Source: Calocera cornea HHB12733 (lineage: Eukaryota > Basidiomycota > Dacrymycetes > Dacrymycetales > Dacrymycetaceae). Taken from it: 54,073 bases of DNA. The position numbers were made by a program, and so were the translations under genes. The stretch covers positions 1 through 54,073 of the forward strand of contig KV424098.1 in assembly GCA_001632435.1 (NCBI GenBank). The letters run 5' to 3'. Shown piece after piece: positions 18,060 to 52,370 of the stretch. How positions within the stretch are numbered: the stretch's first letter is position 1; each line of letters begins with the position of its first letter. The notes beneath the pieces are model-generated. The model was not told where the DNA came from, did not search any database, and worked only from the letters and a program-made list of their open reading frames with translations.

Positions 18060-18066
18060 TGGTACT

Positions 18067-24200: not shown

Positions 24201-24203
24201 GGC

Positions 24204-24488
24204 ATGCAAGAAGCTCACCTTGATGATGGCGATAATGACGACGAAGTCGTCGAAGAACCTGCGATCTTCAGGTTCAACCCCCCTCCAGCGTTGTTCTGGC
24301 CTGTGCATCGGGACTTTGCACAAGAAAACGACAACACTCGGTATCCCCGCGTATCAAGGCGCGTGATTCAGAACTTGCCTGTCACCGATAATCCCAGGCA
24401 CGCGGACTGCGTATCCGACATGCAGAATTCACAGGAGGAAGATCCTGGTTTGGTATACCGGCCGTTTGTGAGACGCACAAGGACGTGA
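24204..24488 (+). CDS. Short hypothetical protein
   Basis: ATG to stop, 94 residues, acidic N-terminus ([17 protein letters not shown]) then polar sequence rich in Arg and Asn. No motif. Codon use is plausible but a chance frame cannot be excluded. Confidence 0.3.
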
Positions 24489-24665
24489 CAGACTTGGGGG
24501 CAGCACGGACTCATACCTGGCACGCACTCCTCCATCCCCCTTCATTGCAAGACCAAATGCCAACTGTATCCTAGCTCACGCTTCCGTCGTTCAAGCCTTC
24601 TTCGTTCTTGCATCATTGTTGTTCACTGTAATAGATAACAAAGACATGGCTATGCCGATGTTGGG

Positions 24666-25378
24666 CTATACTGGGGTTGACATCGGGTCAGACCCTATCT
24701 TCACCCACATCCCTCCCAGACTGCGACGATATACTTTGTCCCAGTTGAACAGGTCACCCCTCCTGAAACCCCTAAATGCCACACGCTCCAGTCGCGGACA
24801 GACCTGGCCGACATTATCTCTGAACTTGGAGGATGCGAATGGGGAGACTTGTTGCATGCGTCGCCCATCCACTGACAGCCGCTCGAGGTTATGCAGCCTC
24901 GAGAACGCGAATAATGTCTCGGGAGAGTCGAGAATGCACATTATCTACTCATCTCATTAGCGCATATGCCGATCGCCAGAAAGTAGAACTCACTTCGTTG
25001 CAATCACGCCATAGTACGAAGAGCGTGCTCTCCACAACATCGACGACATGATGCAAAATCGCCCGGATATTCTCCATGTTAATTTCGCGTGGAGACAAGC
25101 AAAAGCTTCTTGATCGGGCCGGCCGAGAGTGCCAAACACTCCGGTTGGGAGGCATGCAAAGTCTCGAGGTTCGAACGGTTCCCGCTCCACGTGAACGACT
25201 CGACCGGTCGATTGGGGACAAAGTAAGCCGCATTCGTCCACATGCCGTTGAATCGTGTCAGGCGGGGGAGCAAGATGTTATCTTCCGGTAGCGGCGCTTC
25301 GATATCGCAATACAGCTTTGGCGACGCGATCAAAGGACGTCTCGGTGATGCTTTGTGGACGTTCTTCAAACAGTACAA
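24666..25378 (-). pseudogene. F-box/LRR-type protein fragment
   Basis: Two exons around a 49-bp intron near 24,960. The upstream part reads LTRFNGMWTNAAYF and SNLETLHASQPECL, the downstream part LFAFSRLHNLERLSVDGRRM and CPRLERVAFRGF, the leucine-rich pattern of basidiomycete F-box proteins. A one-base frame change near 25,090 is needed to connect the first half. No F-box is seen, so the N-terminus is missing or elsewhere. Confidence 0.5.
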
Positions 25379-25563
25379 CCTTATGGCATTACAACATTAC
25401 AACATTACAGCCTTACAACAGTATGAACAGAACCTCCATATGACTTGAGTGTGATCGGTACAACCGTCCATATAAGAAGCGTAAATATAAGCAGCCTGGG
25501 AAGGAAGGTCAGAAACCTGGTCAAGGCTGATAAGCTTGTACTTACGGCGGAGACAGCTGAATT

Positions 25564-26261
25564 TCATCCGCTGCCGAACATCTCGCGAAGTTGTTTGTGT
25601 AGACAAGCAGCGAGGGCCGCGTTCGTGTCGCACTGCTCTTGCGGGAGATGTTGTTGCGCGATGCAACTTTCTCGTTTCTCCCGAGCTTTCTTAAGGCGCT
25701 CCTCCAAGTCCCGGACCGTGGCTTGAGCCTCTTTGAGTCCTCGCTTGAGAGTGATGACTTCTTCGGCAGCTTCCTTCGTTTCGGCTCTCGCCTCTTGAAC
25801 AGCTTCCCCCAAGTCGTCTGCGCTTCGCTTGGTCACTATCAACGCCTTTGCCATCGACGTCGCGTTCTTTACAGCTTGCTGATCTGCAGTGATTTCCTGG
25901 GAGGCGGAATGTTCATCAATGAGTCACGTATATGCGCATATATGCGCATATACGCGCACAGACGCACTAGATCTGTCTCTTCGACGAGCTCATCGAGTAT
26001 CTCATCCCAGCTTGTACTCCTCCCCACGTTCATTTCCATAATCCCGTCGTGCATCTGGCCTGTCATATAGGAGTAGTCGGGTTCATCGTTGCCCTGTCAA
26101 GATACTTCAGACTGGTTCATATAGCGAGTAGCGCGTGTACTTACATCTGAGGCAGCCGGGACAACTTTGATTCCTCTCTGATCGGTGCTGGACCAGCGGA
26201 TGATACAATACAAAGAGTCGGGCGGCCCCATGTGCCACAGGAATGACGTGTAACCTGCCAT
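25564..26261 (-). CDS. Small coiled-coil protein, unknown function
   Basis: Three exons, all whole codons (26261-26145, 26093-25968, 25896-25564), give 191 residues. Residues 1-39 (MAGYTSFLWHMGPPDSLYCIIRW) look like a small folded domain. From about residue 85 there is a long charged helix with heptads (ADDLGEAVQEARAETKEAAEEV, LKEAQATVRDLEERLKKARE). The second intron is 71 bp and contains two TATGCGCATA palindromes. The frame is intact. No family recognised. Confidence 0.6.
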
Positions 26262-26880
26262 TAATGGCAAATACCAGTACAGATTATTCGAGAGAGACCG
26301 AAACAGTGGTAGAAGTACAAGGGGCGACGCGTGCCGGGACGCGACCGATCGCATAGAGAACGCGTCTTGGGACACCCTGATGACGTATGCGACGCGTCGC
26401 TGTCCGAGCCGGAGCCGAACCAGACTCAGCACAGCCACCGTCCGCATACATTTGCTTCCTCCGACACCCGTAGTGCCTTGTCTAATGAGCGCGGACATCC
26501 ACTAGCAGGACTCGTTCCTCCTGCTGCCCATGCCCCTGGTGCTGCTGAACCAAGTCAGGCACTGGGCGCTCAACCGGCACGTCCCCGCGCACAAGGAGCC
26601 CACCGTCTCCTCCCGCCACACGCATGGGTCCGAGCACGCGGACATCTCCACTCTGCAGTTTACCCTCGCGCGCGCACCGTCTGAGGAAAGAGAGGATCTG
26701 CGCAGCGCTGTTTGACGGCAGGGAGGTCGAGAGGTGGGTGAGGAGCTGCTGTGAGGTCTTTCCGGAGAGTAGGACGATGTGGATTATTTTGGGGATTAGG
26801 TTGGGGGAGCGGAGGACGATGGGAAATTGGGGTCAGGGGTGGGGTCGGCCTGGTCTGGACTGGGAGCACGAGTAGCGGGA
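26262..26880 (+). other. Unrecognised plus-strand coding-like stretch
   Basis: PMPLVLLNQVRHWALNRHVPAHKEP in one frame, then KERICAALFDGREVERWVRSCCEVFPES in another, look like protein but no start, end or splice pair could be fixed. It may be the 5' remnant of another gene. Confidence 0.25.
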
Positions 26881-26889
26881 ACACGAGCT

Positions 26890-27180
26890 CGGGGGACCCC
26901 GACGACGCCTCTCAATGGTCAGCAGCTCCAGCAGCAACAACAGCAATCCCCATTCCAGCAGCAAGAACAAGTCCCGCAACAAGAATTCCAGGAACAACGA
27001 TTCCAACAGCAACCATATCAGGGCGAACAAGGAACACCGCGCCCATGTTTCTCTTCGGAACGCAGGAGCGTCCATTCCCGCCCTTCTCTCAATTTCCTGC
27101 GATCTCATACCCCGATCCCGGAGCTCCCACATTGTTCTCTGCTCGATCCTTACTCCTACCCACTCCCTCCCCCAACCTAA
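26890..27180 (+). other. Gln-rich CAG/CAA-repeat segment
   Basis: Reads QLQQQQQQSPFQQQEQVPQQ on one frame. A CAG/CAA-rich stretch upstream of the HIRA fragment; it may be part of a chimeric first exon or unrelated low-complexity DNA. Confidence 0.4.
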
Positions 27181-27411
27181 AACGTCCCTCCCATCCCCAC
27201 CCACCTTTCAGATACCAGCCCCCAACCTTGGGCCCACCGGCCCTCTGCCGCCTGCCCTGCCGCCGACGACTACGAGCAAGCATGGGGCGAGGATCAAGAG
27301 CCCGTTTCTGAGGAAGAAGAGGAGTGCGAGGTTGAGGGAACAGGCGAGGGAGGAGAGTTACGCCTCTTTCCCCTAGTACTATCCAGAGCCTTGCTGACGT
27401 ATCCCGCTAGA

Positions 27412-28426
27412 CTCCAAAGTCCGCATCTGGTCGACCTCCCCAATCATCATGCCCAACAGCCCTATGCCCCGTACCCTCTGCACGCTGACGATGCACGTCG
27501 GGCCCGTCCTGTGTGTGCGCTGGTCGTACAGCGGCCGCCTGCTCGCCTCTGGCTCGGACGACGGCCTCGTCATGATCTGGGACCTGGACCCCTCGGGCGC
27601 GGGCCGCGTGTTCGGCGAGGAGGAGGAGGAGGTCACATTGAGGGGTGGAAGGCGCTCCGCCGGCTGGCGGGGCACGAGAGCGACGTGAGCGACCTCGCGT
27701 GGAGCCCGCAGGATCGGTATCTTGCGAGCGGGAGCGTGGACGGGACGGTCATCGTCTGGGATGGGTACTCGTTTGGTGAGCTTGGGCGCGTACCGGAGTG
27801 CGGAGGACGGCGGGGCTCATGTGCGCATGTAGACCGGGTGGCCAGGTTGACAGGCCAGCAGGGCTTCGTAAAGGGTGTATGCTGGGACCCGGTCGGCCAG
27901 TATCTCCCCACCCAGGTGCGGGCCCCTCTCCCTCTCCCCCCTTCGCAAGCCCACCCTGCTCTCCCAGAGCGACGACAAGACCGTGCGCATCTGGCGGACG
28001 ACCGACTGGGGCCTCAAGCGGCTCGTCGACCAGCCTTTCCCGCTCTCTCCCGCGGCAACCTTCTTCCGCTGCCCGTCGTGGTCCCCCGACGGCGCGCATA
28101 TCACGGCGGCGAACGCCATGAACGGCCCGGTTTTTGTGGCGGCGGTGATTAGCAGGAAGGAGTGGACAAGCGATATCAGCTTGGTGGGGCATGAGAATAC
28201 CGTGGAGGTCGCTGTATGTCCCATTCTCCAGCCTTGCCACGTATATATGTGGGCCCTCGCCTGCTCTCCCCCTATCACACTCCCTCATATCGTGCTGATG
28301 CGTCGACTTCAGTGCTAGAATCCCCACCTCTTTGTCCGCGACGAGTCCAAGCCCGTCGACTCGCACAACATCTGCAGCGTGCTCGCGCTAGGCTCAGACG
28401 ATCGGAGCATGAGCATATGACAGACA
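27412..28426 (+). pseudogene. HIRA/Hir1 histone chaperone, WD40 fragment
   Basis: After an acceptor at 27,410 it reads DSKVRIWSTSPII, then TLTMHVGPVLCVRWSYSGRLLASGSDDGLVMIWDL. A frame change inside a GAG run near 27,640 leads to GWKALRRLAGHESDVSDLAWSP and STVDG-type repeats. Two more short introns follow, before QGFVKGVCWDPVGQY and SDDKTVRIWRTTDWGLKRLV. It ends PDGAHITAANAMN, WTSDISLVGHENTVEVA and ICSVLALGSDDRSMSI, then TGA where the family has Trp. These are diagnostic HIRA/Hir1 blades (H3-H4 chaperone for replication-independent nucleosome assembly). The first blade and the whole C-terminal half are missing. Not functional as it stands. Confidence 0.85.
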
Positions 28427-28429
28427 AAC

Positions 28430-29395
28430 CTAGGACAGTCCTGGCCCACTGCAACTAGGGTCTCTCCGCGATTCTCCTTGCAGTCGACCAGCTCACCAGT
28501 GCCGTTACGGACCTGGCTAACGCAAGTGATGGGCGTCGTAGTGGCGCGTTGTTGTTTCCCACAGGTGTAGTACCGCTTGGTAACCCTTCTACACATGTCT
28601 GGCGCGTGTTCCCTGAAGACTATAAGTCCGTTGCAAATTGGTGAGCAAGCTGGGGGCGACATGGGGCCGGGAGGACAAGCTCACCAGATGAAGGAATCGG
28701 TACGGTTCTTTGAAGGACGAGGTGCCCCTGGCATGCCCACCGCAGGTGGACTATAAAAGTATGTTCGCCTGCCACCCCTATCATCTGAACAATTGCTGCG
28801 CTGGCTCGCGCGCTTGTCTGGATGCGGGAGGTGTGCCTTGAATGGGAATGTCACATGAGAATGCTGTGAATGGGCGGCAACAATGGCGCATCTGTTATGT
28901 CCTATCATGGAGATCAACATCCATGGAGACAGATAGCACGCAGCCGTTGTTCGCTAAGCGACAGGAAGCCTTGAAACCGATGGCATACAGCCATTAACTA
29001 ATTTTTCGATAAGGAAGATTATCCATGGAGGCAGGTGGGATGGGACCCAACCATTTTTGATAAGAGAGATGACTTGCCGGAGGAGCTGTAGTCGCGGCGC
29101 TCGTGTATTTCACGTTCTAGCTGTCCCGTAAGTCTGTTTCAAGCGCTGCACAATCTGCGACGGGACGGAATACTAGACTACCTGACCACGAGGTTTCCCG
29201 ATACAGCCTCTACAATGCGATTCCGTATGCTGCTGCGACAATTCATCCATATTTAGCTAACTAAGGTACTCTATGTAAGTATAGTTGAAGGCTCGACAGG
29301 AAGCTATCCTTTAAACGGCGGCATGCTGTCTGTTGAGACACTCCGAGTTCCGACCTACACAGGAGCCTTGGTACCGCTCCTTTGAGAGAGGAAGT
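28430..29395. other. No firm gene; weak cysteine-containing ORF
   Basis: A minus-strand frame near 28,660-28,430 (CRRVTKRYYTCGKQQ, TTPITCVSQVRNG) resembles small hypothetical proteins common in mushrooms but has no support beyond that. The rest (28,700-29,390) shows nothing but an imperfect repeat of ATCCATGGAGRCAG. Confidence 0.3.
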
Positions 29396-30637
29396 CTACA
29401 TGTTCTTCTTGAATATGTGTTGCACCTCTTCAACAGTGGGGCGCTGGGATGGGGGCCCACAACACCTCCGGATGACATTGTCATACCAAGAAGGAACATG
29501 CGGGGGAAGTGTCGTAGGTAATTCGACCTCGTGCCCATCCTCCTGAGGCTCCATCTCCAAGTTGTTCTTGGAGCGCAGCTCGTCTGCGATGGCGAGCCAT
29601 TGCAGCATGAGGCCGAGCGAATAGATGTCCTGAAGAGTGCTTGGTTGCGTCTCATGCGCCAAAGCCGGGTCTGTAAACGGCAAGGTAACACCACCATGGG
29701 CCTCCAAGTCGATCAGCTGCGCTCTTGGACGGTCCTCAAGCTTGCCAACGTAGCGAAGGATGACGTTTTGTGGCTTCAAATCCCCGTTCGGCTTCTGGAT
29801 CCTGTGAAGCGCCAGAACACCGCAGACGATGTCGTACGCAATCTGGACGCAGGTCGTCCACGGGTACGATCGCAGTCTGAATGCATCGACGAGGCTTTGC
29901 ACAGTCGCGTAAGGCATCAGGAATCCACGGTAGCTGTCGCCGTCGGTGACGAGCGCGGTGACGTTGATGATGTAGGGCGCTTGTCGAAGCTCGAACGCGG
30001 TCTTGACCTCTTTGAGCGGGTCCATCGCCTGGTCGAGTGTGGGTTCAAAGTGCTTGAATGCGTAAAGCGCATCTTCGAGATAGACCATATCAACTCCCCT
30101 GTTTATGTGTTCAATTCGGACAAGGTCGGATATTTGTATGCGCGGCATGCGGCCAAGACACTTGTCGATGGACACACCGGGGGCTTTGGGTAACGGCGGG
30201 GAGATTGTGATCGTGCAGGGTCCGTCTGCAGTAGAGATGTTGTAAGTTGCGTCAGGGATGATGCCCTCGCCATGCTTCCACCATCGTATTCCAAAGTGGT
30301 CAACGAAGGCGTCTTCCAGGGCAGCCAGGGATGCAGGCCAATCGCAACGAGCAAGGATGCTCTCGAGACTGCTGGGATCGTTGTTGTCGGAAAATTTGAC
30401 GTAGTAAGAGAGCCCTTCGTCGTACTTCCTTTGGCTACGGCCGAAGTAAACACACTGAGTGCCGCCGGACCTGCCTTCGAATGTGGTGTAAGGTCCTAGC
30501 TCATGTTTAGGGGATGAGACACAGGAGCGGGTGCTGGTTCGAGACAGGCGCTTGTCGACTGCATGGTAACACATGACGAGGTAGGCGAAGAGGCGAAAGA
30601 TGGTGTTGAAAGAAGACTCAATGATGGCTTCCAGCAT
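29396..30637 (-). CDS. Protein-kinase-domain protein, single exon
   Basis: One open frame from an ATG at 30,637 gives 413 residues. The frame stays open upstream to 30,718 without another ATG. The middle resembles an N-lobe; the catalytic loop is ALHRIQKPNGDLKPQNVIL, with LIDLEAHGG at the activation segment. The C-lobe follows (LQDIYSLGLMLQWLA, then CCGPPSQRPTVEEVQHIF). GDLKPxN is kept, so phosphate transfer is possible, but the DFG is altered. It reads intact and host-like. Substrate unknown. It abuts the broken methyltransferase on the other strand. Confidence 0.75.
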   Translation of the reverse strand: MLEAIIESSFNTIFRLFAYLVMCYHAVDKRLSRTSTRSCVSSPKHELGPYTTFEGRSGGTQCVYFGRSQRKYDEGLSYYVKFSDNNDPSSLESILARCDWPASLAALEDAFVDHFGIRWWKHGEGIIPDATYNISTADGPCTITISPPLPKAPGVSIDKCLGRMPRIQISDLVRIEHINRGVDMVYLEDALYAFKHFEPTLDQAMDPLKEVKTAFELRQAPYIINVTALVTDGDSYRGFLMPYATVQSLVDAFRLRSYPWTTCVQIAYDIVCGVLALHRIQKPNGDLKPQNVILRYVGKLEDRPRAQLIDLEAHGGVTLPFTDPALAHETQPSTLQDIYSLGLMLQWLAIADELRSKNNLEMEPQEDGHEVELPTTLPPHVPSWYDNVIRRCCGPPSQRPTVEEVQHIFKKNM

Positions 30638-30829
30638 AGATGGAGCAATATCATGTGTTGGAAAGTGAGTGTCGGCGAAGCGCAGGGCAAGCACGAGCGA
30701 AGGTGAAAAATGATACACCAGTCGTCACAGAAGTTAATAAAGCGGGAGGCACTGGCTGCCAGAATTGCGGCGGTACCTGAATGGCTGTGCAGGCTGATCC
30801 TGGCTACAGTAATCGACGCTGAACAACAA

Positions 30830-33800
30830 GCAGCAGAGCGTCAAGTACAGTACTTCAGGAAGGAGGGAGGGGTACGCGGCGACGCCCAGCAAGTTCAACC
30901 CAAAGGACTTCTACATCACGCTCCCGCCCAGAGGGGGCGACTCCACCTGGTCCATGCCCGAGAAATGGAACACGCAGGCCCTGCAGATACAGCGTCCTGC
31001 CTCCAGCCCGCTGGATGCGTTCCTCCTCCCTGCTGACGACCCGCGTATTCATCGGGCGAGGGAGAGGCTCGTCCAGGAGGCGACGAGGGCGATGACCCAC
31101 GGGAGGGCAAAGATCGATTGGAGCCGGTGCGAGGGCAGGCATCAGCGGCCGACGCTGTGCAAGGAGCCGGGGCACCAGGAGGCCGTTCAGATTCTGGGAG
31201 GAATGTGCGCATATCTACACTATGACTCTTCAAAGACATGCTGACTCGGCTGCAGGTGGGAAGTCGAACATGCCTGACTGGACATGGCGCGACTGGGGCG
31301 TGGTCGACATCACACTGCTGCGGTACGCGAAGGAGGACTGGGACCCGTCCTACACGACACTGGTCTGGAACCTCTCGCAGAACGTTGATCGCCAAATCGG
31401 ATCCGGTGTCGTTGGCGTCTCTCCCTGCTTGACTCCCTCGAAGATCCCGTACGTTACGCATCGGGGTGGTCCTATGACAGGACTCGAAGCGCTCGCTCTG
31501 CAAGGCTTGCCCAACCATGAGCTCCTGCTCACGCGTGAGACGGAAGACAACCTCGCTGATCTTGCTGGGAATGCCATGACTTCCACCGTCGTAGGCAGCG
31601 CTACCATGGCCGCCCTCTACGTGTGGTTCAAGCACCTGTTTGAAGATCTCGCCGATCGAATGGACGTTGACGAGCACATCGAGTCAGACAGCGCGGTCGA
31701 AGGGCATATAACGGGCGAAGAGCTACTCGAGTCTCACCCACTCGACCCAGCAGCAACGAAGCAGGTCGAACTCATGCGGGTCCTCGACATGGCCCAGTGC
31801 AGCGCGCGGCTCTGCATCTGCGAAAGTCGCGCGGGCATGACGACAGCGACGATCAGCCAGTGCAAAGACTGCCTTGTCACTTCCTGCAAGCGGTGCGGTG
31901 GTCGCCCGACGCACAATCACGCGCCGTATCATGTTGATCGGCTCTCTTCCACGGGGTTCGAGAAGGAGCTTAAGGCTGCTTTGCCTATGTGCCTCGAGTT
32001 CTCAATCGAAGAGGATGATTTGGACTGCGACACCTTGACGGAGAACCTCACCCTCAGCGACGAGGGCGGGATGAGCACGAAGCAGTTCCGGTTCTGGAAA
32101 GAAACCGTTCGACGCGCTATGAAGGACTTACTGCGGTTCACCGCAATCAAGCGGCAAGAGCTCTGGCTGGTCAACTATGAGAGCACCTCCGCACGGCTCG
32201 AGCTCGTCCTGTCCCCCACCTCAAAGCCCCAATGGTTTCTGTATGCCAGGCCGGACCCAACGATGCCTGCCGACTCGCCTTAGTACCAATGGTTGCACGG
32301 CATATCCTGCGTTCTACGGGGAGGAAGGGCTTCTTTGATGGCCGCAAGGAGTTCGGTCTGCCCATCACAGAGACGCTCGACGTCAAGGTCCAGGGCACGG
32401 GCAAGCTGGATCCCAGCTTCAAGAGCGCTCTCGGCCTGCAGGGTGCCTTCGCTGCAGAGCGGGTGTGGCATACGTGGAAGCTCACGGTCGATCCTGATGA
32501 TGCGAAGCGGCTCGACTTCAATATCTCCGGCACGTACAAGCTCTTGCCCGACTGTGGTGGCGCCGCTCGCTCGCTGCATACGAGCTCAGAAAGCTCCTGA
32601 CGTCAGGGAGTACCTTTCTTCCACGATCCCAGGCTGGGCGAGGCGACTTTGCCAAGCAAGACTGCTATTCATTCTCGTCCGCACATCGGAGGATCGACTT
32701 TGGCGAGGATAGACCCGTCGTCACTGCGCTGGCGAAGAGCTGGAGAGAGCATGACGGGAAGGGTGTGGAGCGGGTACACGCCTATGTAAAGCGGCATGGT
32801 CAAGGCCTCTGGGCTTGAGATCCTCGTATGTTCCTGTTTGATCTGTCTTTGATATCAACTCTGATTCCTCTGCAGCCTGTTCAAAAGGGCAACGCTTCGT
32901 TCGCAGTTTCTGCTGTTCCAGAACCTGTCTTGGCTGACAGAGCGCGCCAAGGTAATCTCTGGAATGCAAGATTGGAGCACTGTGCAGACTGCCGCCTGCG
33001 ACTTGCCGGATTGCCCTGCTTGTGCGCCCAAGCCTCCGACGATCCAGTGGTACAAGGCACCGACCAGGGGTGTCATCGCCATGGAAGACATGGCCGAGGC
33101 TGGAAGGTACGAGCGAGCATTGAAGCACCGTCCCTCAGCCTTCGTCACTCAATGCCATCTATTGGACTGCGTCGGCACCATGCAAATTGGTATCAACTTC
33201 GCCAGCCTCGTCCATCGCGCCGCTGCTGCCCTGTCCAATCGAGGCAACAAGGTCGTGCCTCAGCTTTCATGGCGCTTGACGACGGAATACACGCCGGGCT
33301 CCATCCTCGACCTGCCGAAGTTTAAGCTATACAGCAATCATCAGGATCCAGCATCGGAGCAGCCGCCGAATCTCAGGAAGAAAGGTCCACTCTGGAAGGA
33401 GTAGCTGCGGTCGCTCATTCGGCTGCTAAGCTAGGAAGCGAAGGATGCTCTCCCTTTCATCAAGGAAGAGATCGCCGAGGCGGTTCTGGAGCCACTAAGA
33501 TGGCGTGCCGAAGGTTGGGCTATCCATCCGGCTATCATCCGTGGTGGTGTGCTTGCCGATCAAGTTGGGTACGGCAAGACGGTAATCACACTGGGGTTGA
33601 GCGACGCTGCATCTCGCAGGCCAGCACCCAAAGTTGATCGTGAGACCCTGTGGGGTCATGTTCCAGCTCGGCGAACCACGCTGTGTGTTGTCCCTCCTCA
33701 CCTCATCAGCCAGTGGCCCTCTGAGTACAAAAAATCCACGAAGCCGGATGCGTACGAAATAGTCGTAATCGAGAGCATGGGGCAGCTCAACAGTACTACC

Positions 33801-35950: not shown

Positions 35951-37315
35951 AGAAACCCTGCTCATCCAATGCTAGTCCAATGCTGCATGCTGTGCTGATT
36001 TGTCCAATGCTGTGCCAACTCATCCAATGCTGTGCTTCCTTGTTCAATGCTAGTCCAATGCTACACCAACTGCTCCAATGCCAGTCCAACGCTATACCAA
36101 CTCTTCCAACCACAGTGCAATGATGTGCAAACTTCTCCAATGCTGTGCCAACTCAATCCAATGCTGTGCTGCCTTATCCAATGCTAGTCCAGTGCTGCTG
36201 TGAGGGCACACAGTCTAGCAAGGCTGCCAACTAAACCCAACTGAGTCAAAGAGAAAGGTAGTTCAGATGAAGCAAGCAGAGTTGGAGAGAGTTCAGAAGT
36301 TTGGAGTGGGAGGACGGATGTGATGACCAGGCTTTCTCACAAGACTATGGAGATTCCTCAGAGATTGGATCTAAGGAGAAGCTACCAAAGCTACCAAGGT
36401 TTATATACAAGTATATGATCACAGCCTCAGCTTCTCCCAAAACACCAAGGTGAGACCCAACACTGCCCAGGACACAGCCAAGGTATAGCTGGCACAGCCG
36501 AAACATAGCCGAGTGGGCACTGCTTTACACTGCCTTACCTAAGCCTGTACCAAGTATCCAAAGTTTTATGCCAAAGGTGCACCTTTGTAACCGAAGACCT
36601 AAATGCGGAGCCAATTTCTTGGGAACTGTTGAAGGTGGTCGAAGGTGTCCAAGTGTTGCAAGATTGTGCCCAAGTTGGACAAATTTGGTGTCCCCTGACA
36701 GCTGCACCAACTGCTCCAATGCCAGTCCAACACTATACCAACTCTTCCAACCACAGTGCAATGATGTGCAAACCTGTCCAATGCTGTGCCACCTCAATCC
36801 AATGCAATGCTGACTTGTCCAATGCTAGTCCAATGCTGCACCAACTGCTCCAATGCCAGTCCAATGCTGTGCCAACTCATCCAATGCTGTGCTGCCTTAT
36901 CCAATGCCAGTCCAATACTGCACCAACTGCTCCAATGCCAGTCCAACACTATACTAACTCTTCCAACCACAGTGCAATGATATGCAAACCTGTCCAATGC
37001 TGTGCCACCTCAATCCAATACAATGCTGACTTGTCCAATGCTAGTCCAATGCTGCACCAACTGCTCCAATGCCAGTCCAATGCTGTGCCAACTCATCCAA
37101 TGCTGTGCTGCCTTATCCAATGCCAGTCCAACACTGCACCAACTGCTCCAATGCCAGTCCAATGCTATACCAACTCCTCCAACAACAGTGCAATGATGTG
37201 TAAACTTGTCCAATGCTATGCCAACTCATCCAATGCTGTGCTGCCTTATCCAATGCTAGTCCAATGCTGCACCAACTGCTCCACTGCCAGTCCAATGCTA
37301 CTAGTATGTGCCTGT
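35951..37315 (+). repeat. Satellite array with 216-bp higher-order period
   Basis: Built of short units around TCCAATGC (TCCAATGCTGTGCCAACT and variants). The marker ATGATGTGCA recurs at 36,761, 36,977 and 37,193, exactly 216 apart. An earlier copy at 36,120 shows a shorter unit once the inserted LTR is removed. Frames stay open on both strands for hundreds of bases only because the unit lacks stops and 216 is a multiple of three; I do not call a protein. Confidence 0.9.
36199..36700 (+). mobile_element. Solo LTR (older copy) in satellite
   Basis: Begins TGTGAGGGCACACAG, ends GTGTCCCCTGACA, 502 bp, flanked by perfect 5-bp duplications GCTGC (36194-36198 and 36701-36705). It is homologous to the copy at 38,158 but lacks about 90 bp near its start. 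Most CpG sites of the other copy are TG or CA here. No internal gag-pol remains, so recombination has left one LTR. Confidence 0.92.
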
Positions 37316-38157: not shown

Positions 38158-38749
38158 TGTGAGGGCACACAGTCTAGCAAGGCTGTCGACTAAACCCGAC
38201 TGAGTCGAAGAGACCAAAGATGAGGGATTCGGGGGAGGTCGTGGCTGATAGTATCCAATAATCAACCAATCATACCCTTCGTAAGTCCAACTAGGAGATA
38301 CGTGGGATGTCGAAGGTAGTTCGGATGAAGCAAGCAGAGTTCGGAGGGAGTTCGGATGTTCGGAGCGAAAGGACGGATGTGATGACCAGGCTTTCTCACA
38401 AGACTATAGAGATTCCTCAGAGATCAGATCTAAGGAGAAGCTACCAAAGCTACCGAAGTTTATATACGAGTATACAATCTCAGCCTCAGCTTCTCCCGAA
38501 ACGCCAAGGTGAGACCCAACACTGCCCAGGACACAGCTGAGGCATAGCCCGCACAGCCGAAGCAGAGCCGAGTGGGCACTGCCTTACCTAAGCCTGTACC
38601 AAGTATCCAAAGGTTTATGCCAAAGGTATGACTTTGTAACCGAAGACCTGAACGCGGAGCCGAGTTCTGGGGAAACGTCGAAGGTGGCCGAAGGTTTCCG
38701 AGTGTTGCAAGATCGTGCCCAAGTTGGCCAAACTTGGTGTCCCCTGACA
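38158..38749 (+). mobile_element. Solo LTR (younger copy) in Helitron helicase
   Basis: 592 bp from TGTGAGGGCACACAG to CCCCTGACA, flanked by AGTTC and AGTTT (5-bp duplication with one C-to-T change). It is the CpG-rich relative of the copy at 36,199. A TATA-like TTTATATACGAG lies near 38,460. Confidence 0.92.
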
Positions 38750-39381
38750 AGTTTATCAATGGTATCAACCACTGGCATCTGTGGTTGAAGCTGAACCTTG
38801 CCTTGTGCATCCATTGTACAACCACTCCCTAGATCCAAGAGCCATGCTGCAAACTCTGCACTTGCTGAATCATTGGGATCAAGACACATGTTTTGCTGAA
38901 GGTGAAGAATCTTCATGCTGCGCCAGAGTGCTGAGCACTGCAGACATGCATCAATAATATCTTCCCTTGATCCCTTTGGAACCACTGGTAGTGTTTGCTG
39001 CCAGTCTCCGCCGAATACCACAGTGCAGCCTCCCAAGAGTTGTTTGCTCTGACGCAGGTCTCGGAATGTATGGTTGACTGCTCCAGCACAATGGCAATGC
39101 TGCATTGGTGATTCATCCCAGATGACTAATGCAGTCTGGTGGATGAGTTCCGCTTGCTGGGACTGTGCGGAGATGCCAAGCACTGATTCTCCATTGATCT
39201 TAATAGGAATCTTGAGCATGGAGTGTGCTGTACGTCCACCTGGGAGAAGGAGAGCTGCAATCCCGAATGATGCAACACAAAGCACCACTTGACCTTCTGC
39301 ACACAGTTCTGAGCAAATTGTCTTGTAGACATGTGTCTTGCCCATTCCTGCTAGACCATTGAGGAAGAAGATCTTCCCAAG

Positions 39382-40131
39382 TGTGAGGGCAACACAGATC
39401 CTAACAAGGCAGTCGGTCGGCAATAAGGGAGTTGGTAGTAACGGCGACACGTGTTGCCTACGTCGCAACCCAACCAGAAGGTCTGGCATCCAATTACAAG
39501 CTAGATGCCAAGTTGCAACCAGTTGCACGTGCCAACACAACCCAACAATGCAGGGTTGCCACTGACACTAAGGGGAGGGGTCGAGTTGAGAAGTCACCCT
39601 AGTGGAGCTGCTGTCGCTGTAGGCGACTAGGAGCAACCAAGGTGTGAGTCACCAGATGACAATAAGAGAGGAGGGAAGGTAGAGAGTTGCCTTGGTGGAG
39701 CTGTTGTCACTGTAGGCAACCAAGAGTGACTAAGGGCGACAGATTTTCGAAAATGAGTCTAATGACTAGGACCCATGGGGGTTCCTCAGAGATCAGCTCT
39801 GAGGGGTACAAGGGTCTAGCTAGGAGTATATATACTAGGGGAAAAGGAAGCAAATCCTGTGGCTGACTGTACAGTTGTTCAGGGCCGCTTCCCCATTGCC
39901 TCCTTTGCCTGCTGTCCAAGGGCAACCTGTGATCCCCACTTACAAACCCTCTCCATTTGGGAAATAGAGTATTTTTGTGTTGCCTCTGGCAACCTATAAT
40001 GCCTGAGTGTTATCCGGTCCCATCGCCACTGGTCCATGGCAATTTCTGCCTTGAGGTCCCAAGGGTCAGTGATCTCCCTCGCCTCGGCATCTTGATCTAT
40101 TGCGCCTGGCGAAATGGGGTGTCCCCTGACA
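39382..40131 (+). mobile_element. Solo LTR of a related family in Helitron helicase
   Basis: 750 bp, begins TGTGAGGGCAACACAG and ends GGTGTCCCCTGACA, with perfect 5-bp duplications CCAAG at 39377-39381 and 40132-40136. It shares both ends with the family above but the body differs and holds an internal imperfect duplication (GTGGAGCTGYTGTCRCTGTAGGC, twice). It interrupts the helicase just before Walker A. Confidence 0.92.
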
Positions 40132-43797: not shown

Positions 43798-45050
43798 TTG
43801 ACTAAACAAACTGTCAGATGGCGAGCAATTCGGACTGCCACAAGTCACTTACCTCTTTGCTGCCAAGCACCAAGAAAAACTGCTGTTGGCAATGGAGGAA
43901 GAGGATAAGAGGGTACAAAAGAGATGTCAAGCAGGCAAGATGTGGGAACCACCATTGATGAAGTTAGGGTGACGGTTTCTGCTGGGGGGGCTCGAAGCCC
44001 TGCCTTTTAAGCTGGACAAGTAGCGGAATCGTGACATATTGTTGCAGTCACAGCTGTATCTGGAAGTGGGTCTGGAGGGGCCGGGAATTCGGAAAGATGG
44101 CACATCAGATGTGAAGTTCAGCTTTGACAGCTGTGCCAGGCGCATTGCTATGCTTCTTCTCAAATCCAAAGCCTCGTGGGAGAACTACGTGGAGCACTTC
44201 CCAAATGCGGTCAGTAGCTAGCGAGACTAGGGCTGGTCTCTCACCAATCGCAGACCGCTGCTGATCTTGTTGAGAATCGGGCCGAATGTGTATGGGTTCA
44301 GGGTTCCCTGAAGTGCCTTCGGGCTGGTTGTCCAAGCATGTGCAGTCAGGGCGCGTGCCCCAGAGCAGGGCCGGTTCTCCCAGGGTTGCTTCCATTGCGT
44401 GGTTTTTTATGTTCTGATTGGGCGGAACAGTCCCCTAGTAAGACTGAAATGAATGGATGTTCCTTTTCTGGACGTGTCCCGAGGAGTTCCCTCGAGAATT
44501 GTCTTCAGAACCAAGTCGTTGGCTCAGCGAAGGGGCTATCTCCCCCGAGTGATCCACCATTGAGGCCCTCCTTCCGAACCAAGGGCTTGCACCGCCCGTC
44601 AAAGATAAGCGCCATATGCCATCTGGGAGCTTTGAAGCGCCTCGCGGTTGGAAATGTGTGCTTCTTCGTCCACACGGCAGTGTTCATGAAGCGCAATAGT
44701 GTCCTTTGCCTCACCTTGAGAAATTTATTCAGCTCATCGTGGCTCTGTCCATAAGTTGTCTGAGTCCCCGTGCCTGGGGTTCGCCGCCCACAATCTGTAT
44801 TAGAGTTGCTCGGTGATTCCTCTTCCCCAATACGGCATGTGTACCTTGTGAGCACATCGTTGAGCACGGCATCTCGGGCATCCATCAGAAGGTGCTGATT
44901 CGCGTAACCTTGACTCAGTCATGCCGGGTCTTTTCAGTGCTCAGAAGCGGTCGATGCCCGTTCGAGCTGTGTACCTGGTTGATAAAACTTGCGTCATCAC
45001 ATCAGTTCGCAAATCCGTAAATGGATTTACCCAAATATAGGTAAAATGCA
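43798..45050. other. No recognised gene; one minus-strand ORF at 44505-44885
   Basis: The ORF (126 residues from ATG, HDELNKFLKVRQRTLLRF, HMALIFDGRCKPLVRKEG) has fair composition but no motif. The remainder shows nothing. Confidence 0.3.
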
Positions 45051-45199
45051 CATTGCGGCGTCAGGTGCATGAAGGAACAAGAATTGAATGCTGGAAGCAA
45101 ACAGATCCTTCGCGCATCTCTCTATCTGAGGACCCTGTCCTTTCTCCCCACTTCGTCCGACCCACGACCACTTTCAGCACGCCCTGTCGATATTCAATC

Positions 45200-45655
45200 G
45201 TTATGAGTTGTGTCGCAGATGTATCGAACACGTTGGGCGAGTATATGCTGAAAGGATGGGTGAGTATGATCCCACTTTGAATGCAGATTACATACTGACC
45301 GAGTTGTCCAGACGCTGACCGACCAAGTCTGCCCGACTTGCAGATGTGTGGTCCCTCTCCTGCGATCAAGGGATCATTCCGTAACCTTTTGTGCCAATTG
45401 TGACGGCTCTCCAGAGGCTGCTGTGGCAAAGGAGAGCGGAAGCACAGGTGTGCTTGGGGTTATGTCTGTGATGGCCTGTTTCTGATCTGTATACTCAGCC
45501 CTACACACTGAGGCGTTGTTGGCGCCACCACCGCCCCTATCGTCCACAGGACCGCAACCTTTGTCCCCCGCCTCTACACCCCATACCCATCTTTCACCAA
45601 ACTCGACCCCTCCCACTACGCCACCATCCCGTTCACCTTCCCTCCCCGGGGTTGT
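45200..45655 (+). pseudogene. Zinc-ribbon protein of SSSCA1/p27 type, truncated
   Basis: Exons read DVSNTLGEYMLKGW (45,214-45,258), then TLTDQVCPTCRCVVPLLRSRDHSVTFCANCDG after a 52-bp intron. A Ser/Pro/Thr-rich exon (LHTEALLAPPPPLSSTGPQPL) follows. The LxGW..CP.C..PL.RS..G...C..C pattern matches the Sjogren/scleroderma autoantigen 1 zinc-ribbon family. The frame runs into antisense retroelement DNA near 45,655, so the end is lost. The start codon is uncertain. Confidence 0.6.
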
Positions 45656-48089
45656 CCAGTACATATGCCTGGATGTAGAAAACCATGTCGTCAATCGTTA
45701 CCGGGAGATTGTGGATTACTCCGAGAAGTTCGTCCACAGACCCGTTGGCTGACTCCATCCGGGCTTTCACGTGGGGATCCATCGCCGCTCCAATCTCTTC
45801 ACAGGTCGCCCAGCTGATTGCGACTATTCCGGAACCACTGTCCAGTACACAGTGGAATGGGTGGAGCTTTTCCCCTATCTTAGCTTCGATCTGACGGAGC
45901 GGAACAACTCCTCTTCCAACCAAAAGTTCTTCTCAGTCCGGGGCCAATCCAGCGATGTGAAGAACCTGGTTCTTCTCCGAATCCATTACGATGGTAACCT
46001 TTGCCATTGTTTGTTCCGTGGCCGGAATTGACTTCTTCGTAAGGAACTCCTTTATGCCATTTCGGAGCAGCGGTGAAATTGTGTAAAGGGTTCGGAGAGG
46101 GACCTCTATGGTCTGGTCCAACATATCATGGAGGAGTTGGTTCACCAGGTTTGCGTCATCCGCTGGGGCTACCCGGTTGAACTTAGGTGGCTTCAGGGGT
46201 TCCGGTGCTGTGGCGAGGTCAATGAGGTCCGGAAGCTCGTCCTCCGTCACCTGCAAGGGTGCTGCGTTATGGGGTTCATGGGCTCCGACCTTTGGAATCA
46301 GAGGGGCAGGAATGCGGGGTTCCGGGGATACATTCCGGAGAGGAGAAGCGGGTGTAGGGGTCGGCTGAGGTGGTTTCTTCCCGGCCTTGAACTTGGCCCT
46401 GTTGGCTTGAGCCGCAGCTCTCTTCAAGTTTCTTTCTGCTGCTGCCTGCTGCTCGTTCCTCCTGTCATTCTGGAGCTCGCGTGCCCGATCCGCTTCTGCT
46501 ATCAAGATGTCTACTTCCTCATTGGAGTATTTGTAGCCCGCCGGAGTTGGGTTGTTAATGAGCAAGTTAAGGAGCTCATTACAAACGTCTAACTCCATTC
46601 CGCGTTCCGGGATGGCGTCTTCCTCCTCAACTATGATGCTGTGATATGCTACAACAGCCGTGATACTGGCTTCCGGGTGCCTCTGGTTCGAGTCGGTAAC
46701 CGGGGTGGTTGCTTGGGGCTTGAATACAGAAGACTTGTTCTGGGCATGCCACAGGTCTACCTGTTCTTTGATATCGCGGCCCGGAAGCTCCTTAGCGATG
46801 TAATCTCCGTTGGGGAACAAGTGTCCGCCCCCTTCCCGATGCTTCATGAGTCCTTGCTCAACATAATGCCATGCTCCGGGGCAGTTCCGGATAAGCTCTT
46901 GACAACCCGTAGTTGCTCCGTCGAAGCGACACAACGTTCCAGTAGGTCCGGACTGTTGTCCCTGCTGCTGCCCACCAGTTCGGCGAGGGGGCCCCTGAGC
47001 GTTCTGGTAACCGGAATACGCAACTGGTGGTTGGTATTGCTGGTTTACTCCCGGAGGGGGAATGTACTGTGCCGGGGGTGGTCCGTACTGCGCCAGAGGC
47101 AGAATAAACCGTGGCGGCTGTTGGAACTGCTGTGGGGGGTACATCTGATGTTGCTGTTGTGCCTGGAAGAGGGATAGCACCGTTGAAAACATTCCCTATA
47201 GTTTCTCGTTTTCCGAAGCTAGCCTTTTGATCTTCTTCTCCAATTCCGGGTCCGTCTTCGGAAGAACCGTCAGAGTAACGGTTATAAGCTTTGTGGAGGG
47301 TAGGGAAGCCAACTGAGCCTCTGCGGTCATTGCTGACGTTGCCCCAAGAGCCCATTCCACCGCTTTCCAGTATTCGTCCATGGGTAAGATATCATCCATG
47401 GGTAAGTCCATGGATTTGACTTGGAGATAGTCTTCCATCTTGTCCCAGAGGTTGTTGGTACCTTTTGGATGCCAGAAAACGTTCCGGAACATCCTGTTCT
47501 GGTCAATGACAGAGATCCGGTTCTGGTCGATGAGGAAATTCGAGATCGTGTAGAATTCCCGGTAGAACTGTCCGTAGTCCGCTCTAGTCTCGATCTGTCC
47601 TGTCCAGAGGTGGACTAGATCCTCCAAGTCACATCTTCCGTACTTCCAGTTGTCCGCATCAGAACCGGGGTAATATGTCTTGATGGCCTTCTTGAAACTT
47701 TCGTAGTTGTTTGCCTCTGCCGGAGCCAGTTTGTCGCGGACTTGACACTAGAGGTTGTAACTGCTGTCATCGACATAAAAGATGGCCCAGTTGATCTGGT
47801 CCTTGCCGTCTTTGATCACGGGGTCCGTCCCCTTGAACAGTCTTTCTAATGTGTTGAAGTATTGGTTTACGGAATGTGGGGTCGGAGCAAAATGGGGTGC
47901 AGACGCCATCTCCCGAGAGGTGGGCATAGATCTCCTGGTAGCCATAATGGTGCTAGTCAAGAGTCCGGGATCGGGTAAGGTGTCTTCCGGGGTTGCAAGA
48001 TGAAGCAAGTCCAAGTCTGGAGAAGGAGTTGGGATCCTTTCGAGATCCGAATCAGATTGAGAGGATGTTAGAAGAGGATCGGAGGTCAT
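45640..48089 (-). pseudogene. LTR-retroelement gag and protease, decayed
   Basis: From ATG at 48,089 one frame codes a gag-like protein (VNQYFNTLERLFKGT, LWTGQIETRADYGQFYREF, Pro/Gln-rich middle, charged RARELQNDRRNEQQAAAERN), then PFHCVLDSGSGIVAIS, the active site of a retropepsin. It is interrupted by in-frame TAG at 47,748, TAG at 47,196 and TGA at 45,933. The protein-like reading resumes in the same frame each time, so single substitutions (CAG to TAG, CGA to TGA) explain them. Reverse transcriptase and integrase are absent: the sequence is cut at about 45,640 by the zinc-ribbon gene. TCCGGA is unusually frequent. Confidence 0.82.
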
Positions 48090-48975
48090 GTTCGCTGTTG
48101 AGGACGTTTCCGGAGGTGTTGACTCCGTATTGACTCGCGGAAAACGGCCAGTCGGTATAGGTAAAGGTGGTGGAGAGGGGTACGCGTGACGGCGCGTAGT
48201 TGGAGCTATCCTTTCGACGTGCAGGGAGAACGCGCGTTCCGCCCTGCTGGTGGAAGACTGGGAAATACGCCTTGGACCAATGACTTCTTATCGGAATCCC
48301 TTGCATTGGGCTCCAAAATATGCCTGCACCACTCAGTTTAGGACTGTACGGTGTTCGTCTGAATGGGCAATCCGAGGGCGTCATATTCCGTGAAGTCGTC
48401 ACAGGTCCGGAAGGGTATTCCGGAGTCGGAATAGCAAACGGGATAGGTGTAATTAGTGGGGAACGTCCGGAATAGACTGCAAAGTGTAGCGAGCGATAGG
48501 AGATCTGGGGAAGTAGAGGAGTACGGTAAAGAGAAGATGTCGGAAGCCGGCCCCTTTTCGGAGAAGGAGAATCCGCCTTTTATCTACCTAACCCGATGTT
48601 TACCTTTTGGAATCCCATCTCACAGGGTACATCACCGGGGGCTGATTTCACCTAACCTAAGGGACTATCTCAACTGACAGGACGCCTTTCCAATTGTCCC
48701 TTTTGTAAATTGAGGACCATCCAATGAGAGAGAGTCTTTGCCCGTGAATCCGTCGGATGTGTTCCGTTGTATACGCCATTCCGAGAGGGTTCCGTGACCA
48801 GAACGACCGTACAGAATAAACCCCGCCGGCCCAGATTTGGTCCACGGACCAGAGGGCCAACCAGGGCAAGTCCGAAAGGTGTCCGGACTTCCGGTGCTGT
48901 ATCTCCGGAAGGCTGGAACACGAAAAATTGGGCCACAGTGACAAAGGGAACTGTACAACGCACATGGTAGGGGGG
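48090..48975 (-). mobile_element. Probable 5' LTR and leader of the gag element
   Basis: Upstream of gag on the minus strand lies GTAGATAAAAGGCGG (TATA-like, near 48,580) and a CT-rich leader, fitting an LTR promoter. Exact ends could not be set because no second LTR is in the window. CCGG sites stay dense here. Confidence 0.45.
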
Positions 48976-49440
48976 GGACCTCTTCAGACTCGACCGTACC
49001 CCTATTCCGACATCCTTCTCAGATTATCTCACTACTTGACTGCACTCTATTCCTTACCAACACACCCTAATACTACCTATTCTGAAGCCTATTCCAAAGC
49101 TGGAATAGCCTTGTCTGACCTTTAACTACTTCTTGGAATACAAAACCCTCAGAGACTCCATACAGTCCTAAACTTTGTGGTGCAGACACCATGCTCAGGC
49201 TAAGAGTGATAGGAATTGCCTTGCAATGGCATTGTTTACAATGCCAACCAGCAACAATTCACATGGGGACGTATGCCCAGCTTTCATAGTACTGTTTCAC
49301 ACCCTCAAATAGCAAGGCATGGAGGCCTGGTGCTGCCATAGTACAGTCAGTCCAGGCTGGGTGTTTGAAGGTTGAGGACAGAGACAAGAATGTCACCAGA
49401 GTGCAGTTCCTCCATTTGGGACAATTTTTGCCTCATTTCA
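48976..49440. other. AT-rich spacer, no gene
   Basis: No ORF, repeat or element end could be supported. It may contain the outer end of the second KDZ element, but no inverted repeat matching its right side was found. Confidence 0.35.
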
Positions 49441-49479
49441 ACAAGCCCATACAGTTATTGCCTCCAGCAGGGTTAAGCT

Positions 49480-52370
49480 CCTGGTTCCATCCGGTTGGAG
49501 CCAGTTGTAGCCGGTTCCTGAACTGGCTCAGAAACCGGTCCAGCCATTGCAGGGAGCCCCGGTTAAAGCTGGGGTTTAGAAACCGGACTATAAACTGGAT
49601 GGAACCAGGCAGAATCAATGAACAGTTTGTATAGACTTTGCTACTGCTGTACCTATCTCTGTAGCTACTGGAAGAGTCATTTAGTGGGTATAAGATGAGG
49701 ATGCTTGCCTTCCTTTTCAAGTGATGCAACCAAAAAATGATTCCGTTCTTTGATCATTTCATCCAGGAAGAAATTGAACCGAGGGCCTAGCATGTCATGA
49801 ACAATACTGTGGTAGCCATTGAACCAGACATTAGTCTGCTCTGCTGCAGAAGAGTTGAATAAGCAAGTCTTTGTCTTGACATTGTAGATGTCTGGGAACA
49901 ACAATGGGTTGCAGTGCTGGCCACAGTACTCATCCTTCTCACTGTGTTTTGTTTTGTAGTGGAAGATGTCAACAGGTAGACCCATATTGGTGAAGTGGGT
50001 ATCATTGTTTGCATGAAGATGACAATGCAGATGGCAGTTGTTGTCATAGAAGAGAATGTCGGGCACTGAATTATGTGTTGGAAAGACAGCCCTGAGCATG
50101 TCTTATCATATAGAATCAGCCAACCAATGTCACAACATTCAGGTCCAATAGAACATACCGCAACAGAGGAGATTGCCTCAGCACCATAGAAAGTAGCACA
50201 AGCAATGATGACCCCACATGGGTGGACAATTAGTTGTTCATTGTGAGTCCAAGAGCAACCAAATCTTGCCTTGGCCTTGCAGTTAACTTTAGGACTCTTG
50301 TTGTCACAGTGTGCATCTTCATTGTCAATGAGTTCAGCAAGACTTTGAAATCCTTCTCCAGTTTCAGTCCGGTTTAGGCCGGCTGTAGAACCGGGGTGGG
50401 TTGCAGAACTGGGTAATCCAGTTTCAGAACCGGCAAAACCAGTTCTAATGGGATTGATCAAAACGTGCTTGCGCAGTCGTCGAGCCAGAGTAAACATAGA
50501 TTGTCCCTTTTCCTGGTATGTCTTCTTGGCATCCATGTGCTCTGGAATGTGACATGTGAGAGTGTGAGGGCGGATAGGATTGTTGCACTCCTGCATGGAG
50601 CAGATTCCAGCAAGGTTCTGATGTTGGTGACAAAAGCAAGCTTTAATGGAAGGCAGAGGCTTGTGACAGTTGTGAACCCTGCAGCAATGGCACCCTACAG
50701 CAACACCATCTGTAATGGCTGCATGTGTTGTTGCTGTAAGTGAGATCAGAGACTGTAGAGTGTAGCAGGAGGGGAGAAATACTAACTGAATTGGCCATTA
50801 TTCTCTGAAACTCTGATACACCCATTGCAGGCATGAGCATAGTATTCCTGTCCAGTGCCTTCCATAAATCGGTTGCATTCCTCTAGTGCATGGGTAAGAC
50901 GATCTTTTTGAATGCGACCATTGCCAGGGATGTGTTGCAACAGCAGAAGTGTGGTATGTTGCTCATTGTGATGTTGCAGCAAGGCATCAAGGTAGAAAGT
51001 ATCCCAAATATACTCAATGTGCAGAGCAACAGGTTGCTGAGATGTGGGGGGAAGATCCTGGTTTTTAGACAGGGTAGAGTGCTAGATTTGCATGAATGCA
51101 AGGGCACTGGCACTGTTGCAGGGTGTCAATTGTGGCATTGCGCAGAGAATCAGTAAGAGGGGCCGGTTTAAAGTGGTTTAATCCAGTTGTGATCCGGTTT
51201 AGATGAAGCCATGAATATGTGCAAGTCAAAACCAGACCAAACCGGGTAGTAAACCAGTCAGAACGGAAAGCTGGGCAAGTGTAAAGGAAACCGGGGGCAA
51301 CCGGGGCAAGAACCGGTTCAAACCGGGGTTGGGCCAAGCTCAAACCGGACTGAAGCAGATGGGAATAGGAAGAACAGTATACATACTGAGAGTGAAGTGC
51401 TTGCGCCTTGAACAGAGTGGCCACAGCTGAATCCATGAGAACATGTGCCTCAGCTTGGAGTACCTTGGGATGCCCAGCATAGTAGTGCCATCTCTCCACA
51501 CCATCGGGATCTTGCTGACGGCAATAGTCAAGGTAATATGTTGAGCCACAGTCTATGAGCACAATATTAGGGGCAACACAACATGGCATGACAATGATTG
51601 CAACAAAACTTACTCTTGCATTGCAGCAATGAAACAAAGACCAGAACCACCCCCTTGTCAAGAGTGAAAAGTGATGCTTGATGTCATCTTGCATTGACAA
51701 GTGTTGGTCCCCATGGGCAGGTGGGGCAAACACAATATTGATGAGGTGGGTAGAACTCTTCAAAGCCTACACCTTGTCAGAAGAAGGCAAGGAAATGATA
51801 TAATACATACCTAGTCCTTGGGATGCACTGTGCTCAAGGATGGGTGCAAGGTCTTCAACAAAGGGAGAAGTTCTCTCATTCCCAAGACTACCCGGTATCC
51901 AAAGAGATGGACTGAAGATATGCCATAGCACGTGAACAATGCCTTCATTCACTGCCAGTGACTGAGCAAGAAGTGTGAGTACGGCCGGAGGTAGGGCCAA
52001 TGGCGGTGTATCAAGGTTGCATCGGTTGAGAAGCATTTTCCATGCAATGTAAGGCTGGAAATGGTGTGCCAAGGCAATAAAGTGCTATAAAGAATGGACT
52101 GGGAGCATGCCCAGTGCAGTAGCATAGGGGTAGAGCTGATTGAGGAGGTCTGCAAACAACATCTCGACAAAGGCCAGTTTAGGCCGGTTCCAAATCTGGT
52201 TCAGTATTAGTGTTTGTGTTGAGAGCCGGTTTTGACTGAGTGGTTGTAGACCTGTTTTGAGGAACCGGATAGACCAGTTGTAAAGTCCAGTTTGTACCGG
52301 TTGTGGAGTCCAGTTTTGGCTGGTTCGGATGGTGCAGTATTGACTGGTGCTGCAACCGGGATTGTGCAGT
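49480..52370. repeat. AACCGG/CCGGTT motif set of the second KDZ element
   Basis: Dense in three places: the 3' flank (49,485-49,610), the CxC6-catalytic linker (50,370-50,460) and the large intron (51,160-51,360), plus the 5' flank (52,170-52,370). About 35 copies counted by eye. The exons between are nearly free of it. Confidence 0.8.
49677..52162 (-). pseudogene. Second KDZ transposase, broken
   Basis: Homologous exon by exon to the intact copy at 10.5 kb: FADLLNQLYPYATALG, EEFYPPHQYCVCPTC, YYLDYCRQQDPDG, WDTFYLDALLQHHNEQ, CCRVHNC, LTCHIPEH, WTHNEQLIVHPCGV. It ends with FYDNNCHLHCHL, HSEKDEYCGQHC and FNSSAAEQTNVW. Defects are a TAG at 52,085 near the start and a TGA in exon 2 (AR-stop-HQA against ARRHEA, probably CGA to TGA). 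Introns sit at the same places. The intron matching intron 3 of the first copy is longer and filled with AACCGG/CCGGTT units instead of the CGG motif. The catalytic residues are kept, so inactivation looks recent. Confidence 0.85.

Follow-up and report, generated by a model that had tools for sequence, protein, structure and literature searches.

Two KDZ-type transposons with CxC5 and CxC6 domains lie in the window (the whole stretch of 54,073 nt from contig C185 of the jelly fungus Calocera cornea HHB12733, class Dacrymycetes, analysed here), an intact element, F1, and a decayed relative, F3, and each carries a short motif of its own lineage. The motif occupies the weakly conserved sequence along the entire element and halts near its ends. 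A preliminary description of this DNA had confined it to one transposase intron and the linker between the CxC6 and catalytic parts, which has to be corrected, as neither place is special. The best reading of the analysis, held tentatively, is that the motifs may be element-wide binding sites for a protein encoded by the element itself, acting like the VANC/VANDAL system of plants. All genome searches covered 32.1 Mb.

F1 (10324 to 18068, plus strand) is 7,745 bp long with inverted ends. Its left end is common to four copies (C185, C5, C15 and C89) and its right end to two (C185 and C5), and it is 97.6–99.2% identical to the copies on C5, C15 and C89; contigs C15 and C89 terminate within the element. 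The left terminal inverted repeat (10330 to 10376, plus strand, 47 bp) is 93.6% identical to the reverse complement of the right end of the C5 copy, and its partner at the right end of F1 is at 18068. In the flanks the repeat TAATGTAA is found only between the left flank on C89 and the right flank on C5, that is, across contigs, and this 8-bp repeat suggests mis-joined copies. F3, on the minus strand, starts at 52550 and can be traced to about 49271 by similarity to a complete relative on contig C1. The coordinates of the preliminary description, 49480 to 52370, take in this broken element only, the intact one being at 10324–18068. F3 is without its 3′ half and is strongly depleted in CpG, with a CpG ratio outside the motifs of 0.20 against 0.97–1.04 in the flanks of C1 and C72. 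The element on C1 is 8,461 bp long with inverted ends, and a check for a target duplication found CACGAGTCAG repeated in its flanks; the KDZ target duplication is about 8 bp, or 4–8 bp in Cryptococcus. C72 holds a near-copy of the 3′ part of C1, truncated at its 5′ side. Many CxC6 copies are no more than a few kb from a contig end (for example on C7, C52, C89, C15, C124 and C179), probably because the assembly breaks at repeats. The window itself has 272 identical bp, inverted, at both contig ends (2038–2309 and 53802–54073), in SET-domain-like frames.

The transposase of F1 has an exon with CxC5 (10545 to 11311; Pfam 6e-21, with matches in relatives), a CxC6 domain found with Pfam (11876 to 12070) and a catalytic exon identified by similarity to relatives (12532 to 12966), all on the plus strand. 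In F3, on the minus strand, CxC6 was again found with Pfam (50522 to 50716), and the catalytic exon (49677 to 50102, by similarity to relatives) contains one stop. Both CxC domains are far above the Pfam cut-off in F1 and above it in F3. The KDZ catalytic domain PF18758 did not match the catalytic exon of the window, nor did the genome search with it give any place on C185, and we therefore call the elements KDZ-type; against the protein of one relative it gave only a weak match (E 0.009, 16.1 bits, cut-off 26.6).

The intron that follows the HSQ codons is at 11312 to 11486 in F1 (plus strand, 175 bp) and at 51113 to 51386 in F3 (minus strand, 274 bp). That the transposase introns lie at matching places had been claimed for these two elements, and in each of the 13 loci listed this intron begins behind the same codons (HSQ, HAQ or LSQ). 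It had also been described as greatly enlarged, which is true relative to the 48 bp of C95 and C179, the shortest relatives, but most other families have the intron enlarged too, with 85 to 352 bp of readable sequence separating the coding matches. The F1 intron is made of CCGGAATCGGCG units, with eight CCGGAA (0.24 expected), four CGGAATC (0.08) and no AACCGG, while that of F3 holds nine AACCGG (0.19 expected) and no CGGAATC. The linker of F1 (12065 to 12367, plus strand), partly written in the motif, has three CCGGAA (0.18 expected), two CGGAATC (0.02) and no AACCGG, and the linker of F3 (50273 to 50527, minus strand) has three AACCGG (0.08), four of the decayed form AACTGG (0.2) and no CGGAATC. 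The enriched intron and linker counts of the two elements were not attained in any of 500 shuffles, which bears out the earlier observation that each is written in its own units at both places.

To these counts can be added a comparison of 12 families, chosen from 25 catalytic matches by dropping redundant copies and any locus whose intron or linker was unreadable. Introns share more words with their own linkers than with the linkers of others (0 of 20,000 reshuffles, p = 5e-5, for k = 6, 7 and 8), a signal carried by F1, C1, F3, C17, C90, C197 and C5_199. With words of k = 8, an intron's own linker comes first in F1, C1, C17, C197 and C5_199, second in F3, C90 and C179, and fifth or lower in C7, C142, C238 and C95; in C238 it ranks first at k = 6 only. 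The sharing between intron and own linker is absent in C7 and C142, and C95 and C179 have no shared 8-mers. Ordinary tandem repeats are present in the same intron of several other families, which makes this intron a general hotspot. In C17 the intron unit is found inverted in the linker (44 bp at 75%). In C5_199 (C5:199481–203600, minus strand) the translated linker contains, in inverted form, 81 bp of the intron's minisatellite, 88% identical.

Across whole elements the limits of the motif are clear. In C1 all 113 AACCGG are inside the element ends, the outermost 190 and 198 bp from them, and no copy occurs in the 4.6 kb of flank that can be read, 1,980 bases being masked; in both F1 and C1 the sites start about 120–200 bp inside the ends. 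C1 has no AACCGG in 2,650 bp of conserved coding sequence against 113 in the 5,804 bp of remainder, and F1 one CGGAATC in 2,605 bp against 25 in 5,134 bp. F1 accounts for 26 of the 32 CGGAATC of the window and F3 for 22 of its 47 AACCGG. In the genome 42 of the 51 matches to CCGGAATCGGCG are in the four F1 copies, the other nine being single and elsewhere. Pairs of AACCGG 10–12 bp apart occur 110 times, against 29 for the reversed pattern; among the 100 places listed of these 110, 50 are in C1, 25 in C72, three in F3 and 22 elsewhere, including five on C178. The pairs on C178 form a cluster at either end of a hAT element and the motif is therefore not exclusive to the clade of F1 and C1. This cluster was considered as a KDZ relative and rejected, the element being a hAT. 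In the locus concerned (L078, C178:4501–11500) clusters of AACCGGTTC at 2183–2207 and 4780–4840 flank the hAT transposase like subterminal repeats.

The core of the F1 motif, CCGGAATCGGCGTAA, is sharp over 15 bases with little information beyond, and the C1 motif has a weaker second signal 10–12 bp off, reflecting adjacent units. Neighbouring units form same-orientation arrays, the arrangement seen for VANC21 in Arabidopsis, in C1 (70 of 103 neighbours, p = 0.005) and not in C72, F1 or F3. Comparison of copy with copy gave no excess conservation at motif sites, with 2.35% against 2.54% for other non-coding DNA in F1; in C1 and C72 the values are 3.04% and 1.86% (p = 0.10), so the sites are not slower-evolving. 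F3, which is without the accessory part, has an excess of the decayed forms AACTGG (13, 2.7 expected) and AACCAG (10, 3.1 expected), whereas C1 does not (six and seven against 6.1 expected for each). When a second-order background was trained on each element it took up the motif, which left the test with little power in F1 and C1 (4.7 against null maxima of 4.3 and 4.6). By this test only L007 and L008 were clearly above the null, L001, L003, L004, L005 and the control stretch C53 b being barely so.

Other words are concentrated elsewhere. At L008 (C35:199208–202561), a KDZ locus that matches PF18758, there are 23 TCCAGA (2.5 expected), 12 TCCGGA (1.7) and 17 TCAGGA (3.1), scattered over coding and non-coding parts and perhaps a third private motif. 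In the window a CCAATGC/CATTGGA minisatellite (35965–37300; 34 against 0.9 expected) adjoins a PIF1-like helicase frame (38584–39567). Beside F3, 45001–49500 has long minus-strand frames with no Pfam match and 16 CCGGAA against 2.2 per 3 kb; it is another element with a CCGG motif.

A transposase tree of 25 rows, 19 of them different, places the four F1 rows with C1, F3 and C72 in a single clade (100/100); the rows of C72 and C75 are partial, and that of C72 opens with residues from beyond its breakpoint. This clade divides by motif, the AACCGG side having support of 92/90 at a fork that is not starred. The catalytic exon is 73% identical between F1 and C1 and 91% between F3 and C1. Because F3 is so close to C1 and C72 is a 5′-truncated near-copy of it, the tree shows only one independent motif switch. 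Within that scope the proposal that position is kept while the motif is swapped is supported for F1 against the AACCGG group, and motif type goes with transposase subfamily in these elements. Nor are the two motifs mixed in one element, C1 being without CGGAATC and without TCCGGA; F1 has a slight excess of AACCGG (eight, with 3.6 expected; 12 of 500 shuffles gave as many).

The motifs of both lineages have the triplet CGG in common. Distances between CGGs on the same strand were compared with those of an 8-kb control stretch (24001–32000). F1 peaks at 6 bp (27 + 21; C1 6 + 2, control 3 + 4), while C1 peaks at 10 bp (38 + 44; F1 4 + 4, control 2 + 2) and at 12 bp (31 + 25; F1 5 + 5, control 5 + 1). 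With the triplet shared and the distances different, the triplet has been retained and the spacing altered, a rule drawn from one lineage pair since C72 is not independent.

Downstream of the transposase are accessory genes that encode a cysteine cluster, C-x2-C-x6-C-x10-C-x2-C-x6-C. F1 has two diverged cluster genes, one on each strand, with cluster a at 15667 to 15801 (plus strand) and cluster b at 16705 to 16821 (minus strand), and C1 and C72 have one minus-strand frame each. The Zn2Cys6 pattern is C-x2-C-x6-C-x(5–12)-C-x2-C-x(6–8)-C, and all five aligned cluster members fit it. We name the cluster Zn2Cys6-like because its score is under the Pfam cut-off: cluster b reaches 14.7 bits against the 21 required for Zn_clus, and cluster a and C1 gave no Zn_clus match. 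Searches with the cluster alignment gave no solved-structure match and no homologue among proteins of length similar to its 45 residues, and folding cluster a from its sequence alone gave a poor model (pLDDT 63). Of eight loci scanned with the cysteine pattern, F1 (twice), C1 and C72 have the cluster; C17, F3, C238, C142 and C90 gave no match, the last two being partly masked. Each cluster query had eight matches in the genome, two each in the F1 copies of C185 and C5 and one each in C1, C72, C53 and C253. A prediction that the loci on C53 and C253 would lie in motif-filled DNA failed, no motif clump being found at either (4,691 of 10,000 bases, 47%, are masked on C253). An acidic tract, encoded in F1 by a GAGGAT array (15368 to 15470, plus strand), precedes the cluster in gene a and follows it in C1 and C72, so the gene architecture is not conserved. 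The clusters of F1 and C1 are 37–41% identical, compared with 73% for the catalytic exon. F1 has a second reading frame at 14124 to 14828 (plus strand), about 31% identical in C1 and C72, for which a homologue search found none. Zn2Cys6 proteins typically bind paired CGG triplets, according to a published account (PMC5559640). The accessory gene, carried by the complete copies and not named in the preliminary description, is a candidate reader of the motif.

The closest known system is VANC/VANDAL, the anti-silencing system of Arabidopsis (PMC5735166, PMC10398659). VANC21 binds a nine-base motif concentrated in the non-coding DNA of the family to which it belongs; the motif multiplies by way of tandem repeats and is not the same in related families (PMC5735166). 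Common to both systems is a short motif, dense in non-coding DNA, rare in related families, different between relatives and multiplied via repeats, and in F1 and C1 the motif is likewise family-private and non-coding-dense. The reader there is a proven element protein, whereas here it is a candidate. The transposase superfamily is also another one (Mutator-type in VANDAL) and the candidate reader is unrelated, a Pfam search of the frames examined having found CxC5 and CxC6 and no VANC-type domain; the likeness is one of working principle. With the fungal Zn2Cys6 regulators Gal4, Hap1 and Put3, as described in PMC5559640, the elements share the cysteine spacing and a repeated CGG at set spacing, though here the cluster is under the Pfam cut-off and transposon-borne, and its putative targets are the introns and spacers of the transposon itself. 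The KDZ elements of Cryptococcus (PMC12810828) are similar in size (7.2–11 kb there, KDZ1–3 being about 9–11 kb), in their inverted ends and in having a zinc-chelating CxC domain by the transposase. That domain is CxC1, rather than the CxC5/CxC6 found here, and the accessible part of the paper mentions neither motif arrays nor a cluster gene. A literature search over titles and abstract openings, with most subscription papers outside its reach, found no report of motif arrays in KDZ elements among the matches listed.

The most serious rival is neutral self-copying, in which each element gains a short repeat that slippage, template switching or conversion then carries, in either orientation, into places that tolerate it, such as introns, the linker and intergenic DNA; no reader would be needed, with selection merely excluding the repeat from conserved exons. 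We regard this as a possible explanation, though a somewhat doubtful one. The ordinary tandem repeats in the same intron of other families agree with it, as do the inverted intron units in the linkers of C5_199 and C17 and the lack of excess conservation at motif sites. Duplication is evidently at work, since the flanks of units are alike beyond the motif (one-side identity of at least 72%) for 79% of the units in C1 and 29% of the CGGAATCGGCG units in F1, compared with 4% and 0% for random anchors. The sharply bounded F1 core, the spacing preferences of 6 and 10/12 bp and the link to the cluster gene on the other hand tell against it, and long repeats are few (8 kinds of exact 30-mer in F1 and 15 in C1 against 199 in C17).

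If instead the transposase itself, for example through CxC5/CxC6, were to bind the motif, the sites would be akin to the subterminal repeats of hAT and En/Spm elements, short sites near the ends that are bound by the element's own protein. CxC domains are indeed present in all families examined, and the hAT on C178 has its AACCGGTTC clusters on either side of the transposase, but in F1 and C1 the sites run element-wide from inside the ends and are not end-bound, and we consider this explanation unlikely. A splicing or introner role, with the motif helping to define the many small introns of the element, could draw on GTGAGTCCGGAATCGGCG at 15551 and 15800 in F1, the latter next to cluster a, which puts a unit directly 3′ of a likely splice donor twice. 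The motif is, however, equally dense in untranscribed-looking and translated parts and occurs in both orientations, so that such a role seems very improbable. It seems equally improbable that CCGG has been left behind by mutation in the host, through CpG decay or biased repair. CpG is depleted in F3, where CpGs within aligned motifs seem to survive more often (10 of 23 compared with 17 of 79, counting the outcomes listed, the six commonest per block), yet sister elements of one genome have different motifs, and the motif stops at the element ends with normal CpG in the flanks. Host CpG decay was rejected as the cause of the motif because the sisters differ.

To return to a reader encoded by the element, the spare DNA of each lineage, meaning its introns, its 5′ and 3′ regions and the loosely constrained linker, would have become an array of binding sites spanning the element. 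The reader would be a sequence-specific protein of the element, most likely the accessory Zn2Cys6-like protein, that binds CGG direct repeats and so recognises copies of its own family, activating them or preventing their silencing, in the way that VANC proteins act on VANDAL elements. The sites would multiply via short duplications, held to the half-site and spacing of the reader, and as its preference drifts the array would be rewritten at the same places. We infer binding, activation or anti-silencing, and co-evolution from a set of observations that we count in favour of such a reader: the element-bounded motif, its absence from conserved coding sequence, the sharp F1 core, the genome-wide specificity, the CGG spacing, the presence of the cluster in F1, C1 and C72, the habit of Zn2Cys6 proteins of binding paired CGG triplets, the divergence of the cluster and the decay of the motif in F3. 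Counted against it are the lack of excess motif conservation, the single switch, the sub-cut-off cluster, C53 and C253 without clumps, the unconserved gene architecture, the same-orientation arrays in C1 alone and the ordinary tandem repeats of other families. The earlier suggestion that motif and reader co-evolve is plausible in the light of these sequences, and can now point to a specific candidate and a definite rule of spacing, from one lineage split.

A bolder form of this proposal is that KDZ-type elements have a self-recognition code independent of plant VANC, in which a Zn2Cys6-like protein reads CGG repeats, lineages are split by spacing (6 against 10/12 bp) and homologous introns and the translated linker are rewritten to match; we put it forward with some reserve, as conceivable rather than probable. 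Even if neutral self-copying were the right explanation, these elements would still be a clear case of element-bounded repeat spread remodelling introns and a protein linker. Because complete copies of two sister lineages are found together in one genome, whether reader and motif co-evolve can be tested directly. The system may be a fungal counterpart of the self-recognition of plant transposons and, if so, self-recognition through a private motif would have arisen more than once in DNA transposons, the fungal version having used a zinc-cluster domain of the type found in fungal regulators.
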